Assembly (NCBI GenBank): GCA_030584065.1
Contig: CP129489.1
Location: 3,822,235-3,886,234, forward strand
Direction: 5' to 3'
Length of the DNA stretch: 64,000 nt
Source of the DNA: Flavobacteriales bacterium
GTDB lineage: Bacteria > Bacteroidota > Bacteroidia > Flavobacteriales_F > PHOS-HE28
Numbering within the stretch: the first letter of the stretch is position 1; the number at the start of each line of letters is the position of its first letter. A program made the position numbers and the translations under genes. A model generated the notes under the pieces. The model did not search any database and was not told the origin of the DNA. It saw only the letters and a program-made list of their open reading frames with translations. Positions 56,429 to 63,922 of this stretch are shown here, piece after piece.

Positions 56429-56683
56429 TCAGGCCTCCTCCACGGAGAAGCTGAATTTCTCCATCACCTGGTTGGCCAAGAGCTTTTTACAGGCCTCCTC
56501 CACTTTGGCTTCGGCGGCCTTCTTATCGCCGGCCTCAACCTGCAGGGTGATGTGCTTGCCGATGCGCACGCCGGTGATCTCGGGCAGGCCCAGATTGCCC
56601 ATGGCACCGGTCACCGCCTTGCCTTGCGGGTCCAGCAGGTTGTCGTGGGGCATCACGTCGATGGAGGCGCGGAAGGTCTTCAT
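56429..56683 (-). CDS. purS: Phosphoribosylformylglycinamidine synthase subunit PurS
   Basis: Small subunit (84 residues) that bridges PurL and PurQ in purine synthesis, converting FGAR to FGAM. Motifs: VMPHDNLLDPQGKAVTGAMGNLG and VRIGKHITLQV, then EEACKKLLANQVMEKFSFSV. It lies downstream of pssA on the same strand, separated by the family E repeat. PurL and PurQ are not in the window. Confidence 0.93.
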   Translation of the reverse strand: MKTFRASIDVMPHDNLLDPQGKAVTGAMGNLGLPEITGVRIGKHITLQVEAGDKKAAEAKVEEACKKLLANQVMEKFSFSVEEA

Positions 56684-56694
56684 GGTCTTTTGGA

Positions 56695-56781
56695 TTCACC
56701 ACAGAGGCACAGAGGAATGCTGACCGTCCATGTGGTGCTATAGCTTGATTTTCTCCGTGTTCTCGGTGCCTCTGTGGTGAA
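56695..56781. repeat. Intergenic palindrome, family E (CACAGAGGCACAGAG words), entering pssA
   Basis: The left arm (56695-56715) reads TTCACCACAGAGGCACAGAG; the right arm (56761-56781) is its near-perfect complement, CTCGGTGCCTCTGTGGTGAA, with CTCCGTGTT just before. The loop is about 45 bases. The right arm lies inside the pssA coding region, so the element supplies that gene's last codons and stop. It ends 12 bases before the purS start. Confidence 0.85.
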
Positions 56782-57565
56782 CTGATCTTCCCCAGAGCGG
56801 GCTGAGCAGATACACGATCAGGATCAAAGGAACGGCGAGAATGCCGTAGAGCACAACAAGCCCTGCGCCAAGGCCGAGCAGCAGGTAGACCACCTCATTG
56901 CCTTTCCATCTCATATGCTTGAACTTCAGGGAGGGGAGCGGGATGGAGGAGAGCATGAGGGCCGCGAGCACGACGCTCAGGATGAGCTTATGGACGGGGT
57001 TGGCCATGAAGGCGGCGATATGGTTCTGCATCTCGTTGGCGCCTGGGCCGAATCGGACCCCGATGCCCCAGGAGATGCTGCCGAAGGCCGCCCACAGCAG
57101 CGCGTTCGCGGGTGTGGCCAGGCCGAGGAAACCGCTCGTCTGCCGGGTGTCGATGTTGAATCGGGCCAGTCGCCACATGGAGGCGATGGCGATGACCATC
57201 GCGCAGGCCGCTGATGCCCAGAGCGGCTCGCCGAACAGGTCGCCGGTGCGCACGGTCGAGGGACCGAAATCTCGATGCGCATCAAGGGTGAGCTGGAGCG
57301 CCTTCCACGGGATTACGGCCGAGATGAACCCCGGCGCCACCCCGAAGGTCACCATGTCCGCCAGGCTGTCGAGCTGCCTGCCCAATTCGCTGCCGCCGCC
57401 CAAGGCCCGGGCCGCCAGCCCATCGAACACATCGAACAGCGCTCCGGCGAACACCAGCCAACACGCGATCGTTAGCTGCCCTTGGGAGGCCATTAGGATG
57501 GATGCGACCCCGCAGCCTAGGTTCGCCGTGGTGAGCAGGTCGGGGAGGCGGGGGAACCGGGCCAT
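56738..57565 (-). CDS. pssA: CDP-diacylglycerol-serine O-phosphatidyltransferase
   Basis: Makes phosphatidylserine from CDP-diacylglycerol and serine. 275 residues with about seven helices and the CDP-alcohol transferase motif DGLAARALGGGSELGRQLD (D-G-x2-A-R-x8-G-x3-D-x3-D). The final 14 residues, VHHRGTENTEKIKL, are translated from the palindromic repeat at 56695-56781 and are not part of the family, so the original stop codon has been lost or displaced. The ATG at 57565 (MARFPRLPDLLTTANL) matches family starts. Confidence 0.92.
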   Translation of the reverse strand: MARFPRLPDLLTTANLGCGVASILMASQGQLTIACWLVFAGALFDVFDGLAARALGGGSELGRQLDSLADMVTFGVAPGFISAVIPWKALQLTLDAHRDFGPSTVRTGDLFGEPLWASAACAMVIAIASMWRLARFNIDTRQTSGFLGLATPANALLWAAFGSISWGIGVRFGPGANEMQNHIAAFMANPVHKLILSVVLAALMLSSIPLPSLKFKHMRWKGNEVVYLLLGLGAGLVVLYGILAVPLILIVYLLSPLWGRSVHHRGTENTEKIKL

Positions 57566-57644: not shown

Positions 57645-58748
57645 ATGAAGAGCTTGATGACGAAGGGGATGCGCAGCCTTTTGCTGGCCGTTGCGGTGGC
57701 GTGCGCCACCGCCGCTCGGGCCCAGACCGATGCGCCCAAGTACAGCAACGAGTTCCTGGCCGTCGGGGTGGGAGCGAGGGCCTTGGGCATGGGCAATGCC
57801 TTCACGGCGGTGACCAACGACGTCACCAGCGGCTACTGGAACCCCGCAGGGCTGCTGGGGGTGAAAGGCGACCTTCAGGTGGGCGCCATGCACAGCGAGT
57901 ACTTCGCCGGCATCGCCAAGTACGATTACATCGGGCTGGCCAAGCCCATCGATTCGGTGAGCACCATCGGCTTCAGCTTCATCCGATTCGGCATCGACAA
58001 CATCCCCAACACCATCGACCTCATCGATCCCAGTGGCAACATCGACTACGACCGCATCACCACCTTCAGCAGCGCCGATCATGCCTTCATCCTCAGCTAC
58101 GCGCGCAAGCTCAGCATCCCGGGCCTGCGCGTGGGCGGCAATGCCAAGGTGATCTATCGCCGCGTGGGGGAGTTCGGCAAGGCCTGGGGCTTCGGGCTCG
58201 ATGCCGGTGCGCACTACCACCGCGACCGCTGGCGCTTCAGCGCCGTGGCGCGCGACATCACCGGCACCTTCAACGCCTGGAGCTACACCCTTGATCAGCG
58301 CACCATCGACGTGTTCGAGCAGACCAACAACGAGCTGCCGCAGAACAGCGTGGAGGTGACCCTGCCGCGCCTGATGCTCGGTGCCGCGCGCGAGTTCAAG
58401 TTCGGCAAGAAGTTCGACCTCATCGCCGCGGTGGACCTGGAGAACACCTTCGATGGGCGCCGGAACACCCTCATCCAGAGCAGCGCCATCAGCGTGGACC
58501 CCCGCTTGGGCCTGGAGCTCGGCTACGCTGGTATCGTGTACGTGCGGGCAGGGATGAGCAACATCCAGTACGTCACCGAGATCACGGATGAGAAGCGCCT
58601 CACCGTGCAGCCCAACATCGGCATCGGATTGCGCATCAAGAGCGTCTCGCTGGACTACGCGCTCACCGACATCGGCGACAACAGCGTGGCCCTCTACTCC
58701 AACGTCTTCTCCCTGCGGTTCGACCTGTACAAGCGGCCCGGCTCATGA
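57645..58748 (+). CDS. PorV/PorQ family outer-membrane protein
   Basis: 367 residues: signal peptide (MRSLLLAVAVACATAARAQ), then the family start EFLAVGVGARALGMGNAFTAVTNDVTSGYWNPAGL, followed by barrel strands ending VFSLRFDLYKRPGS. PorV-type proteins carry T9SS cargo from the translocon to the sortase complex. The gene next door encodes a PorU2-type sortase and overlaps it by ATGA, so they are expected to act together. Whether it is PorV or PorQ cannot be settled by eye. Confidence 0.88.
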   Translation: MKSLMTKGMRSLLLAVAVACATAARAQTDAPKYSNEFLAVGVGARALGMGNAFTAVTNDVTSGYWNPAGLLGVKGDLQVGAMHSEYFAGIAKYDYIGLAKPIDSVSTIGFSFIRFGIDNIPNTIDLIDPSGNIDYDRITTFSSADHAFILSYARKLSIPGLRVGGNAKVIYRRVGEFGKAWGFGLDAGAHYHRDRWRFSAVARDITGTFNAWSYTLDQRTIDVFEQTNNELPQNSVEVTLPRLMLGAAREFKFGKKFDLIAAVDLENTFDGRRNTLIQSSAISVDPRLGLELGYAGIVYVRAGMSNIQYVTEITDEKRLTVQPNIGIGLRIKSVSLDYALTDIGDNSVALYSNVFSLRFDLYKRPGS

Positions 58749-61700
58749 AGAGACTGCTCCTGTCGGTGGTGACCCTTGCGCATGCCGCGGCCTTGCTGGC
58801 CCAGCTGCATGGCAATGAATGGATCGACCACGACAGGCGCTATTGGAAGTTCGAGGTGGCCGCCGATGGGGTGTACCGCATCGATTCGGCCACGCTGGCG
58901 CAGAGCGGCTTCCCCATCGCCACCGTGGATGCCCGGCACCTGATGCTCTTCGGGAAGGAGCAGCAGGTGCCCATCTATGTCCATGGCGAGTCCGATGGCG
59001 TGCTCAACGCGGGCGACTACATCGAGTTCCATGCCACCAAGGCCGACGGCCAGGTGGACAAGCGGATGTATCCCTATCCGGACGCGAACCCCAATCCCTA
59101 CGTGAGCCTCTACGGCGATTCGGTGCGCTACTACCTCACGTGGGACGAGACGGCTCCTGCGCTGCACATGGGCGCCTATGCCAATGCCGACTACGCCAGC
59201 CATGCGCCGCGCCCCTGGGCCTGGTTCGAGGGCATACAGACCTACAACCTCATCTACTGGGCGGGGCTGCTGGAGCCCACGCTGCAGCAGATCGGCATCG
59301 GCACCAGCCTCAGCCCCATGCTCGAGAGCGAGGGCTTCGGCGGGCTGCCGCTCTACAACGATGGGAGTACCAATCTGCTCGACATCCAGGATGCCGTGGT
59401 GGTCACCCCGGGCGTGTATCCCGGCCCCGATGCACCGGACGCCACGGTGACCGCCACCGTGGCGGCGCAGAACAACCCCGGCAACAGCTCCCTCTTCAAC
59501 CACCATACGCGGTGGCTCTATGGGCCTGCGCTCAATACCGTGGGCCGCGATACCATCTACAGCGGCGCCCGCACCATCCGTGGCATCTTCGACATACCGG
59601 TGTCGGTGATGGGGCCCGCCACCACCATCCGCTACAACGCACCGCACGATCTGGATGGGCCGGGCCAGGTAGGCGCGGGGCTGCCCAATTACCTCGACTG
59701 GCAGGTGGTGAGCAACGTGCGCATCCGCTATCCACGGTCGCTGGCCATCGGTGGAGGCGGGCCGCTGCGCATGGAGGTGCCCGGCAGCGCCGACCCCATG
59801 GTGCGCCTCGATGTGTCGGCCTTCGTGGGCACGCCGGTCATCTACGCTTACGGCGACAGTGTGCGGCGGGTGGCCGGCACCTTCAACGGCAGCGCGTGGC
59901 AGTTCCTCTTCCCGGCGGCCTTGGCCCAGGGCCTCACACCGGTCGTCGTCTTCGGCCAGGAGACGGTGCAGCCGATCACCGGGCTGCGGCCGGTGACCCC
60001 CTCCGGCTACTTCACGGACTTCGCCGCCATGGACATCGACTCGGCGATGCTCATCGTCACGCACGCCAGCCTGATGAGCAGCGCAGCCCTCTATGCCAAC
60101 TACCGCGAGAACCAGAGCCCCAACCGCTACAACACGCTGGTGGCCGATGTGGATGAGCTCTACGACCAGTTCGGCGGCGGCATCCCCAAGCAGGCCTATG
60201 CCATCCGTGCCTTCTGCCGGTACCTCATCCAGCAATGGAGCACTCGGCCGCGTGCGCTCTTCCTCATCGGGAAGTCGGTGAACACCTGGTCGGCCTTCTT
60301 CTCGGGGCTGCCGAGCATCAACCCCGATGCCGGCGGCGCCCGCGCACGGTGCCTGGTGCCCAGCTACGGGTATCCCAGCAGCGATCAGGCCTTCACCACA
60401 GGCCTGGAGCTCGATACCCGGCGCATGGACATCCCCGTGGGCCGGCTCAGCGCCAATACCAACGCCGAAGTGCTCGCCTACCTGGCCAAGGTGCAGGCCA
60501 CCGAGGCACAGCCGCCGGCCATCTGGCAGAAGAACATCCTGCATTTCGCCGGAGGATTCAGCCCGCAGGAGGTGAACAACATGGCCGGTTGGCTGGGCAG
60601 CCTGGCCGCCATCGCCACCGACACAGCCGCCTACCTGGGCGGTAACGTGGTCACCTTCAAGAAGCTCGGCAGCGATGTCATCGTGCAGGCCAGCGCCGAT
60701 TCCGTGCGCCATTACATCGAGGATCAGGGTGTAACGCTGATGACCTTCCTGGCCCATGCCTATAGCGCCAGCTTCGACATCACCATCGACGAGCCCGAGA
60801 ACTACGACTGGAACGGCAAGCATCCGGTGATCCTGGGCAACTCCTGCTACATCGGCAACTTCCACGGCAACGGTGCCACCAGCGCCAGCGAGCGATGGGT
60901 GCTGATGCCGGATGCGGGCCCCATCGCCTTCATCGCGGCTGCGGAGCAGGGCTTCACCGGCTGGCTGCTCAATTACTCCTCGCCCTTCTACGACAGCTTC
61001 GCCCGCGTGAACCATGGAGGCAGCATAGGCGAGCACATGAAGCACGCCGGCCTCACCTGCCAGGTGATCTCGCCCACCAGCTACATGGCGTGGAACGTGC
61101 AGAACTTCGCGCTGCAGGGCGACCCCACGATCACGCTCAATTCGCACCGGCAGCCGGATTACACGGTGAGCGCGGACCGCATCCTCATCGAGCCGGCCAA
61201 TGTGACGGCCGATGTGGACAGCTTCACGGTGAAGGTGGCCGTGGAGAACATCGGGCGCGCGGTGAACGCCACCATCAACGTGGAACTCAAGCGGTCGAAT
61301 CCCGGGCTCGGCGCCAACCCCGTCAGCTACTTCACCACGCTGAGCGATGTGGACCTGCGAGACACCGCCGTGTTCCGGGTCCCGACGCTCGGATTCAGCG
61401 GCGGCCAGGGCACCAACCAGCTGCAGGTCCTCGTGGACCTGGAGCCCGACCAGGTGGATGAGCTGGTGGACGATGCGAACAACACGGCCAGCACCGCGCT
61501 CTTCATCGCCAGCGGCGACCTCGTGCCGGCTTGGCCCTACGACTTCGCCATCGTGCCCGAGCCCACGGTGACGCTGAAGGCCAGCACGGGCGATCCGCTC
61601 GCTCCGGTGCGGACGTATGTCTTCCAGATCGACACCACGGACCTCTTCAACAGCCCGATCCGGGAGACGCACACCCTGCAGGCCCCCGGCGGCGTGGTGA

Positions 61701-63922
61701 GCTGGCAGCCCCAATCCATCTTCGCGCTGAATGCGCTGCAGGACAGCACGGTGTTCTACTGGCGCTGCAGCATCGATAGCGCCTCCTCAGGCAACGGCCA
61801 GTTCAACTGGTACGAGCGCTCGTTCCAGTACATCCCGCAGCGTTGGGGCTGGGGGCAGGCGCACTACTTCCAGTTCAAGAACGACGTCTATTCCGGCATC
61901 CGCTACGACCGGCCGGCACGTGACTTCGACTTCGAGGAGGGGCAGCGCTTGCTGCGCGCCACCGTGCTGGGCAACGTGGGCGGCCCCGCAACGGCCTGGT
62001 TCATGGAGCTGAGCCCGCAGGACTATGGCGGCTGCGGACCCGCGGCATGGCATGTGGCGGTGGTCGATCCGGTCTCCTTCGAGCCCTGGGGCACCTACTA
62101 CGTGAACCCGACAACCGGCCAGGTCTACTATCCGGAGAACCAGTTCGGCAACTACAACAACGCCGGCGGCTGCCGTAATCGGCCTGAGGGCTATTTCGGA
62201 TTCCACACCAGCTCGGCTGCGCAGCTCACCGGGCTGCAGGGCATGCTCAGCGGCCCCAACGCCATCCCTGCCGGGCATCATGTGCTCATGTACACCTGGC
62301 TCTACCTGGACAAGGACGGCATGGCGGCCAGCAATCCGGCCCTGATGCCCTACCTGGAGAGCATCGGATTCCCCAGCTTCGCCGCCCTGCCTGATAGCGT
62401 GCCCTACATCGCCTATTTCAGGCAGGGCGATCCCTCCACGTTCCGCGATACCGTGGGCGCCGCCATCACCGACCAGATCAGCCTGAGCGCATGGGTGAGC
62501 ACCGCCTTCGCCCAGGGCACCATCACCACCATGGACGCCGGCCCCGCATCGAGCTGGCACGGGCTCTACTGGAACGAGCTACCTGCAGTGCCGACGGACA
62601 GCACGCGGATCAAGCTTTTCGGCATCGGCCCGGCCGGCGGCGCGCCGGTGCCGCTGGCCGACCTGCACAGCCCGCTCGATTCCCTGCCCGACCTCGGTGA
62701 CCTGGTGGATGCGCAGCAGTACCCCATCCTGCGCATCCGCGGCGAGTTCAGGGACAACGTGAACGGCGAGGCCGTGCCAGCCCAGCTGGAACGCTGGCAG
62801 CTGCTCTTCAGCCCGGTTCCCGAATGCGCCATCCATCCGCCCCTGGGCCTCTATAATGGGCTGGAGGGCCATGCCGAGGGTCAGCAGGCCGCGGTGGCGG
62901 TAGCCGTGCAGAACATCAGCCCGTTCGATATGGACAGCCTGCTGCTGACTGCATGGGTGGTGAACCGCGCCAACGTGAGGCACCGCGTCCATTACCGGCT
63001 GAACGCGCCCCTGCCAGCGGGCGCATGGCTGGTGGACACGGTGCGGTTCAGCACGGTCGGCTTCGGCGGATGGAACACCCTCATGATCGAGGCCAACCCC
63101 GTCGATACCCTCACCGGCCGCTACCACCAGGCAGAGCAGTACCGGTTCAACAACATCGCCCAATGGCGCTTCGAGGTGGATGAGGATCGCGAGAACCCGC
63201 TGCTCGATGTGACCTTCGATGGGCGGTTCATCCTCGATGGCGACATCGTTTCGGCGAGGCCCGAGATCGAGATCAGCCTCGATGACGAGAACACGATCCG
63301 CCTGCTGGATTCACCTGCCGACACCGCGAGCTTCAAGGTCTTCCTCACGCGCCCCGGCGCCGGGCAGCAGCGCATCCACTTCCGCGATGGCGCAGGGAAC
63401 GAGGTCATGCGCTTCCAGCCCGCATCGGGAACCGACAACATCGCCCGCATCCGCTACAGCCCGCGTTTCGATTCGGACGGCCGGTATTGCCTGACGGTGC
63501 AAGCCTCGGACCTCAGCGGCAACGCGAGCGGCGACAACGATTACAAGGTGTGCTTCGAGGTGGTGAATCGGACCACCATCACCGATGTGCTCAACTACCC
63601 GAACCCCTTCACCACGAGCACGCGCTTCGTGTTCACGCTCACCGGCTCCGAGCCGCCCTCGCAGATGCGGATCCAGATCCTCACCGTTACCGGCAAGGTG
63701 GTGCGCGAGGTGAGCATGGCCGAGCTGGGCCCGATACATGTCGGGCGCAACATCACCGAGTTCGCCTGGGACGGCACGGACCAGTTCGGCGACCGCCTGG
63801 CGCGCGGCGTGTACCTCTATCGCGTGATGGCCCGCCTCAATGGGGAGGACATCGAGGTGCGCGAGACACAGGCCTCCCAGTACTTCACCAAGGGCTTCGG
63901 CAAGATGTACCTGCTGCGGTAG
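58745..63922 (+). CDS. porU2: Putative type IX secretion sortase PorU2 (C25 cysteine peptidase)
   Basis: 1725 residues, longer than classical PorU. The C25 (gingipain-like) catalytic domain shows His671 (FLAHAYSASFDI) and Cys701 (VILGNSCYIGNFHG), 30 residues apart as in C25 enzymes. CARDB-like domains follow (VKVAVENIGRAVNATINV), then a long middle part and a C-terminal FlgD/CTD-like domain (LNYPNPFTTSTRFVFTL ... ARGVYLYRV). Sortases of this class cleave cargo sorting domains and attach them to surface lipid. Coupled to the PorV-like gene by ATGA. Confidence 0.85.
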   Translation: MKRLLLSVVTLAHAAALLAQLHGNEWIDHDRRYWKFEVAADGVYRIDSATLAQSGFPIATVDARHLMLFGKEQQVPIYVHGESDGVLNAGDYIEFHATKADGQVDKRMYPYPDANPNPYVSLYGDSVRYYLTWDETAPALHMGAYANADYASHAPRPWAWFEGIQTYNLIYWAGLLEPTLQQIGIGTSLSPMLESEGFGGLPLYNDGSTNLLDIQDAVVVTPGVYPGPDAPDATVTATVAAQNNPGNSSLFNHHTRWLYGPALNTVGRDTIYSGARTIRGIFDIPVSVMGPATTIRYNAPHDLDGPGQVGAGLPNYLDWQVVSNVRIRYPRSLAIGGGGPLRMEVPGSADPMVRLDVSAFVGTPVIYAYGDSVRRVAGTFNGSAWQFLFPAALAQGLTPVVVFGQETVQPITGLRPVTPSGYFTDFAAMDIDSAMLIVTHASLMSSAALYANYRENQSPNRYNTLVADVDELYDQFGGGIPKQAYAIRAFCRYLIQQWSTRPRALFLIGKSVNTWSAFFSGLPSINPDAGGARARCLVPSYGYPSSDQAFTTGLELDTRRMDIPVGRLSANTNAEVLAYLAKVQATEAQPPAIWQKNILHFAGGFSPQEVNNMAGWLGSLAAIATDTAAYLGGNVVTFKKLGSDVIVQASADSVRHYIEDQGVTLMTFLAHAYSASFDITIDEPENYDWNGKHPVILGNSCYIGNFHGNGATSASERWVLMPDAGPIAFIAAAEQGFTGWLLNYSSPFYDSFARVNHGGSIGEHMKHAGLTCQVISPTSYMAWNVQNFALQGDPTITLNSHRQPDYTVSADRILIEPANVTADVDSFTVKVAVENIGRAVNATINVELKRSNPGLGANPVSYFTTLSDVDLRDTAVFRVPTLGFSGGQGTNQLQVLVDLEPDQVDELVDDANNTASTALFIASGDLVPAWPYDFAIVPEPTVTLKASTGDPLAPVRTYVFQIDTTDLFNSPIRETHTLQAPGGVVSWQPQSIFALNALQDSTVFYWRCSIDSASSGNGQFNWYERSFQYIPQRWGWGQAHYFQFKNDVYSGIRYDRPARDFDFEEGQRLLRATVLGNVGGPATAWFMELSPQDYGGCGPAAWHVAVVDPVSFEPWGTYYVNPTTGQVYYPENQFGNYNNAGGCRNRPEGYFGFHTSSAAQLTGLQGMLSGPNAIPAGHHVLMYTWLYLDKDGMAASNPALMPYLESIGFPSFAALPDSVPYIAYFRQGDPSTFRDTVGAAITDQISLSAWVSTAFAQGTITTMDAGPASSWHGLYWNELPAVPTDSTRIKLFGIGPAGGAPVPLADLHSPLDSLPDLGDLVDAQQYPILRIRGEFRDNVNGEAVPAQLERWQLLFSPVPECAIHPPLGLYNGLEGHAEGQQAAVAVAVQNISPFDMDSLLLTAWVVNRANVRHRVHYRLNAPLPAGAWLVDTVRFSTVGFGGWNTLMIEANPVDTLTGRYHQAEQYRFNNIAQWRFEVDEDRENPLLDVTFDGRFILDGDIVSARPEIEISLDDENTIRLLDSPADTASFKVFLTRPGAGQQRIHFRDGAGNEVMRFQPASGTDNIARIRYSPRFDSDGRYCLTVQASDLSGNASGDNDYKVCFEVVNRTTITDVLNYPNPFTTSTRFVFTLTGSEPPSQMRIQILTVTGKVVREVSMAELGPIHVGRNITEFAWDGTDQFGDRLARGVYLYRVMARLNGEDIEVRETQASQYFTKGFGKMYLLR

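Follow-up and report, generated by a model that had tools for sequence, protein, structure and literature searches.

A palindromic repeat forms the predicted C-terminus of a bacterial PssA, and its arms bracket GxxExxY nuclease genes in other genomes

How does a membrane enzyme come to end inside a repeat? The question is raised by pssA in a 64,000-nucleotide stretch of the genome of a Flavobacteriales bacterium (contig CP129489.1), referred to here as the window, where the last codons and the stop codon of the gene lie within a palindromic element that separates it from purS (Table 1). Comparison with relatives shows the junction in its element-free state and indicates that the element supplies the last 14 residues of the predicted PssA together with its stop codon.

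The start of pssA was placed at the ATG at position 57565 by the segment MARxPRLPDLLTTANL, which is conserved in relatives, and this gives a protein of 275 residues. The 362-residue open reading frame listed for the gene begins too far upstream relative to the start in relatives and was rejected. Translation of the minus strand ends in ...SPLWGRS-VHHRGTENTEKIKL. The DNA of the tail reads, from 56782 to 56738 of the minus strand, GTT CAC CAC AGA GGC ACC GAG AAC ACG GAG AAA ATC AAG CTA TAG. The first base of the valine codon belongs to the flank, and the remaining bases belong to the element. The first-pass annotation had read all 14 residues as the translation of one arm of the element, with the stop codon in its loop. 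The stop codon is indeed in the loop, but the conserved arm of about 33 nt encodes only the 11 residues V-H-H-R-G-T-E-N-T-E-K, and the final I-K-L is encoded, like the TAG, by a loop that is particular to the pssA locus. Genes resembling PorV- and PorU-type type IX secretion proteins, as judged by eye, adjoin pssA (57645-63922).

Table 1. Features of the pssA-purS junction, in coordinates of the window
Feature	Position	Strand	Remarks
purS (PF02700)	56429..56683	-	downstream, co-directional; Pfam match
TCCAAAAGACC, probable remnant of native last codons	56684..56694	-	resembles codons of the empty sites
Family E palindromic element, 87 bp	56695..56781	.	one of 13 paired copies in the genome
purS-proximal arm TTCACCACAGAGGCACAGAG	56695..56714	+	9 nt shorter than in the G063 copy
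Locus-specific loop TCAAGCTATAG-CACCACATGGACGG-TCAGCATTC	56715..56748	-	holds the stop codon; common only to the pssA copies of G063 and G023
pssA-proximal arm TTCACCACAGAGGCACCGAGAACACGGAGAAAA	56749..56781	-	three degenerate units of about 9 nt
Tail codons and TAG stop (15 codons, VHHRGTENTEKIKL)	56738..56782	-	absent in element-free relatives
pssA (CDP-alcohol phosphatidyltransferase, PF01066)	56738..57565	-	275 aa, terminates within the element; Pfam match

The element belongs to a group of repeats called family E. The source genome, a single Bacteroidota contig of 3.92 Mb, contains 13 forward and 13 reverse matches to the arm pattern, which pair up as palindromes, 13 in all and about 73-132 bp long; a control search with the reversed pattern had 0 matches. 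The arms are conserved between the copies. They consist of three degenerate units of about 9 nt and read, with some variation, TTCACCACAGAG-GCACAGAG-GACACAGAG-AAA; the copies end in TTCACC...GGTGAA. Their loops vary. At pssA, complementarity between the 20-nt arms at the two ends (56695-56714 and 56762-56781) is 95%, and the predicted RNA hairpin has an energy of -38.1 kcal/mol (z -4.9), which was equalled by 0 of 200 shuffled sequences. None of the three inward reading frames of the arms contains a stop codon, and the encoded peptides are of the FTTEAQR-, SPQRHRG- or HHRGTE-type. Therefore, an in-frame tail requires no special luck.

The exact arm is present in most genomes of the genus and in 4 of 395 sampled Bacteroidota, a count that includes the source genome. 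It also occurs in records of Acidobacteriota, Chloroflexota, Cyanobacteria, Planctomycetota, Verrucomicrobiota, Gemmatimonadota, Pseudomonadota, and the former Deltaproteobacteria, and the cultured strains that contain it include Baaleninema simplex PCC 7105 and Reyranella sp. CPCC 100927. Some family E copies that are seemingly orthologous across species retain similar loops (L024/L113/L145; L003/L148/L168). A search of Rfam with the element gave only a sub-threshold chance match, and a literature search of partial coverage with the tail peptide and arm sequences found no paper describing them.

PssA was located in 42 of the 45 genomes of the genus. At 15 of these loci the protein ends in ...SPLWGKLFPKxx or similar, the element is absent, and there is a four-base overlap between the TGA of pssA and the ATG of purS. 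The tail is found in the genus only together with the element: in the source genome (G000) and G098, which are of the same species, in G063 (IFHHRGTENTEKIKL), and in G023 (ILHHRGSGNTEKMKH). The remaining complete PssA ends seen in the genus are different, mostly ...GK/RLFPKxx, and in G026 and G022 family E copies with other loops sit just past the stop codon of pssA. No tail conserved independently of the repeat was met among the PssA ends compared. A conserved PssA terminus with no more than a likeness to the repeat has next to no probability: three species share a similar tail, but the 12 other copies match the pssA element at the DNA level in both of its arms, also in the one that is not coding, and the other PssA proteins end differently, which refutes this reading for the genus. 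The element-free state of the relatives also bears out the earlier proposal that the element came to the end of an existing gene, of which the window alone is no proof.

The position of the insertion can be given more closely. An insertion at the gene end is upheld, and it lies inside the last codons of pssA and not after the stop codon. The empty sites read CTCTTTCC[A/G]AAGACC-ATG, in which the native codons are TTTCC(A/G)AAGACC, and a similar segment, TCCAAAAGACC, is found between the element and purS. When aligned to the 15 empty sites, the segment from G000 beats 99% of shuffles (p about 0.01). The corresponding match is short and reaches p 0.04 in G063 (beats 96% of shuffles) and p 0.28, which is not significant, in G023. 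Remnants of the native codons thus seem to lie 3' of the element, which supports the reading that it was probably inserted within the final pssA codons and that the native end was pushed in the 3' direction, where it would be untranslated. No target-site duplication is visible by eye at the pssA site or at the metH site described below.

The element at pssA appears to have moved between species after its insertion. In the tree of PssA and PurS, G063 clusters with G062 and G021, both of which are without the element, and G023 clusters with G026. The DNA identity of G000 and G063 is 0.60-0.78 in the body of pssA. It climbs to 0.83-0.95 in a stretch made up of the gene's end, the element, and the greater part of purS, and past that stretch it is lower again. 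The loop of the pssA element is identical in G000 and G063, and 14 of its bases are common to G023. Independent site-specific insertions in G000 and G063, suggested by the identical loops, were considered and set aside, since a recombination tract explains the identity profile better than two insertions. The pssA element of G023 is an older copy, and the profile supports the view that the element and purS were later passed between species in a short recombination tract.

The junction also carries other repeats. In other species (L033-L060, L091-L100), the gap between pssA and purS contains unrelated repeats of the types CGCAACG, CTCTGCG..TTTGCG, CAAGTGACAAG, and GGCGAGT, as well as GGGTCGACCC palindromes. 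The junction seems to be either a hot spot for palindromes or a place where they do little harm.

These comparisons bear on whether the tail and hairpin are selected, with an intercistronic RNA hairpin setting the pssA:purS ratio or a polar tail aiding PssA. Such a function would fit the strong predicted hairpin, the loop that is identical in G000 and G063 despite the diverged pssA bodies, and the occurrence, in different species, of several elements whose loops are similar and whose loci are seemingly the same. We consider it improbable, because a plain stop-start overlap takes the place of the element at 15 loci of the genus, because a recent recombination tract would be expected to give the identity with G063 that spans the pssA end and purS, and because the junction carries several unrelated repeat families in other species. 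The PssA tail is most likely a tolerated by-product, since the element-free relatives manage without it.

Repeat-derived tails are rare among the element copies examined, about 100-111 units from the genus and from G068, which belongs to another family of the class. Many open reading frames that enter elements look like tails, but the codon-position GC content identified most of them as antisense artefacts. Two cases are clearly coding: pssA, and a gene for a DUF2851 protein (PF11013) in G058, which ends in ...LLKQNA-FTTEAQRARRRSG inside an element. The latter places a repeat-derived tail at the end of an unrelated gene. In the sister genome G027 the element is decayed and the protein ends in ...LLKRNA-FSTKAQKSLEGGG; in other species DUF2851 proteins end at LLKxx, and several of their genes overlap the next start codon. 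L228 and L194 also gave tail candidates, which were left out of the count because the trimmed sequences have no Pfam domain. PssA of G033 and G025 (L035/L100) ends in KPQVARDT/K, apparently from an unrelated CAAG-type repeat, a parallel capture of a tail.

The arms of family E also occur around a gene. In G062, G023, and G031, they bracket a gene of about 140 codons located between two metH genes, and its product is a GxxExxY protein (TIGR04256, E about 1e-43; PF13366 PDDEXK_3). The name that NCBI gives to this family refers to nothing but a motif, and the nuclease is little studied. The GxxExxY proteins score above the cut-off of the HMM, and the catalytic D and ExK of the PD-(D/E)XK fold are conserved in at least 35 of 37 of them. 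Within the genus, family E arms surround GxxExxY genes at L112, L118, L130, and L161. The 119 arm-bearing loci from public genomes include four GxxExxY genes, and all four (4/4) have family E arms on both sides within about 110 nt. The genes bracketed in this way belong to the genus and to several further phyla. GxxExxY genes are present in half of Bacteroidota, so the co-occurrence of arm and gene is weak evidence by itself and was not used as the main evidence.

The association of GxxExxY genes with inverted repeats extends beyond family E. With a flanking repeat called at a local alignment score of 13 or more, inverted repeats flank 26 of 29 GxxExxY genes in the genus as against 3 of 152 control genes and 0.7% of shuffles. 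In arm-bearing genomes of many phyla, 26 of 28 GxxExxY genes are flanked as against 10 of 159 control open reading frames; two of the 28 loci come from G497, whose GxxExxY coordinates equal those of genus member G059. At Bacteroidota loci that were not chosen for arms, the counts are 26 of 40 and 1 of 31, respectively, and 2-6% of control genes overall lie between inverted repeats. The types of arm differ between GxxExxY genes (ACCACAGAGGCACAGAG, CCACAGATGACGCAGATG, ACAGGATGAACAGGAT, and ACCGCAAAGGCGCGAAG, among others). The flanks of a given gene are closer matches to each other than to the flanks of other genes. Mapped on the nuclease tree, arm type, which was assigned by eye and corrected for L290 after inspection, changes 8 times, compared with 21.8 expected and a minimum of 16 in 2000 shuffles. 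This supports the view that arm type follows the GxxExxY phylogeny and that arm and nuclease are probably inherited together. Many of the arm families (for example CACAGAGGN, CAGATGNCG, ACAGGATNA) resemble direct repeats of a degenerate unit of about 9 nt, three to an arm, as if they were read by one repeated DNA-binding surface. An 883-codon open frame contains the GxxExxY domain at G121:C9:91044-91385, G147:C1:72354-72692, and G133:C22:338277-338615, where the usual frame has about 140 codons.

The junction between the metH genes (L319-L348) varies by species in a manner that resembles the variation at the pssA-purS junction: the genes overlap in some, and in others the site is occupied by an E-armed GxxExxY gene or by palindromes of other types. 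In G021 and others the orthologous site is without a palindrome, and the comparison does not fix the order of events. The source genome has two GxxExxY genes, neither of which has family E arms, so its 13 copies are now without a cognate partner there.

It could be that the GxxExxY genes are passengers, or that they home into pre-existing palindromes in the manner of homing endonucleases and have no role in making the short elements. The short elements do outnumber the GxxExxY copies, and 13 family E palindromes occur in a genome that has no E-type GxxExxY gene. We regard homing as unlikely, although it is the strongest of the rival readings, because arm type follows the nuclease phylogeny and the paired sides of a gene match best mutually, as expected of ends that are inherited together. 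An ordinary REP/RAYT system, with palindromes moved by an IS200-like (Y1) transposase, is less probable still. The genome has three loci matching Y1_Tnp, one of them RAYT-like, and REPs near gene ends are well known (PMC3733652), but the nearest Y1 locus is 15 kb from an arm and none adjoins one, the arms are without GTAG or CGTC tags, and tblastn of the three Y1 proteins against the fetched arm loci found no relative.

The account that we hold with good confidence joins two supported parts, insertion of the element in the final pssA codons and its kinship to GxxExxY elements as a form without a gene, with an inferred one, a possible copying of arms driven by the nuclease. According to this account, the pssA element would be a gene-less, MITE-like relative of GxxExxY elements, as its arms suggest. 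The GxxExxY nuclease, acting in trans or from the same element, may cut DNA at or near arm-like sites, and the cutting may lead to the copying of arms to new places. An element that entered the final codons of pssA would leave their remnants just upstream of purS, and entry of an arm would always add a short polar tail terminating in the loop. Insertions at tight operon junctions such as pssA-purS may survive because their cost is only a short tail and an intercistronic hairpin, and the loss of the native LFPKxx end may be tolerated because the tail follows the last membrane helix. Three observations count against the account or its simplest forms. The source genome has no E-armed GxxExxY gene, the loops differ within the genome, a feature that copying of entire elements would not in itself produce, and the lack of a visible target duplication goes against a simple MITE model.

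A broader proposal, which we put forward tentatively and judge to fall a little short of an even chance, is that GxxExxY PD-(D/E)XK nucleases, together with the iteron-like inverted arms cognate to them, are a class of mobile elements that has yet to be described and that extends across many phyla. The short palindromes of environmental genomes, including that of pssA, would then be gene-less derivatives moved by the nuclease. Short palindromes of such a kind are common in environmental genomes, and their mover is not known. The tight physical and phylogenetic tie to one nuclease family provides a concrete candidate mover and suggests a function for GxxExxY proteins. The newness of the link is provisional: a literature search of partial coverage found nothing that connects GxxExxY to repeats, and two papers mention GxxExxY only in passing.

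Palindromic repeats that are translated have precedents. The Rickettsia palindromic elements (Ogata et al. 2000, cited in PMC10969869 and PMC3733652) are translated inside proteins, mostly as internal in-frame inserts, and have a CGTC end according to PMC3733652. Family E is similar in that its palindromes are predicted to be translated as parts of unrelated proteins, the tails of PssA and DUF2851. It differs in that the PssA tail is C-terminal and ends in the loop, any frame serves, and there is no CGTC end. Slightly over 10% of the intragenic GTAG/CGTC REPs are located at the ends of coding regions, where they often supply the stop codon (PMC3733652). Since both the supply of stop codons by REPs and the translation of Rickettsia elements are already known, the PssA tail is a new case of a known phenomenon. 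The case is small and clean and comes with empty sites: a repeat has rewritten how a membrane enzyme ends, and a hairpin has taken the place of a translational stop-start overlap.

With REPs, REPINs, and their RAYT transposases, family E shares the form of small dispersed palindromes near the 3' ends of genes, but it has three-unit arms, no GTAG/CGTC end or adjacent Y1 gene, and a link to a PD-(D/E)XK gene. The TIRtrons with their TIRYT enzymes (PMC3733652) also combine a gene between long inverted repeats with solo repeats elsewhere in the genome; their enzyme is an HUH tyrosine transposase and not, as in the present case, a GxxExxY protein of the PD-(D/E)XK kind. Bacterial MITEs are non-autonomous elements of 70-300 bp with terminal inverted repeats, mostly intergenic and with occasional fusions to open reading frames (PMC10969869). 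Family E, with 13 paired copies of about 73-132 bp, resembles them in size, terminal inverted repeats, and the many dispersed copies, and differs from them by copy-specific interiors, by the absence of a seen target-site duplication, and by an autonomous partner that would be a nuclease. The E-armed GxxExxY genes of other genomes, which have the same ends, are candidate autonomous relatives of the element at pssA.
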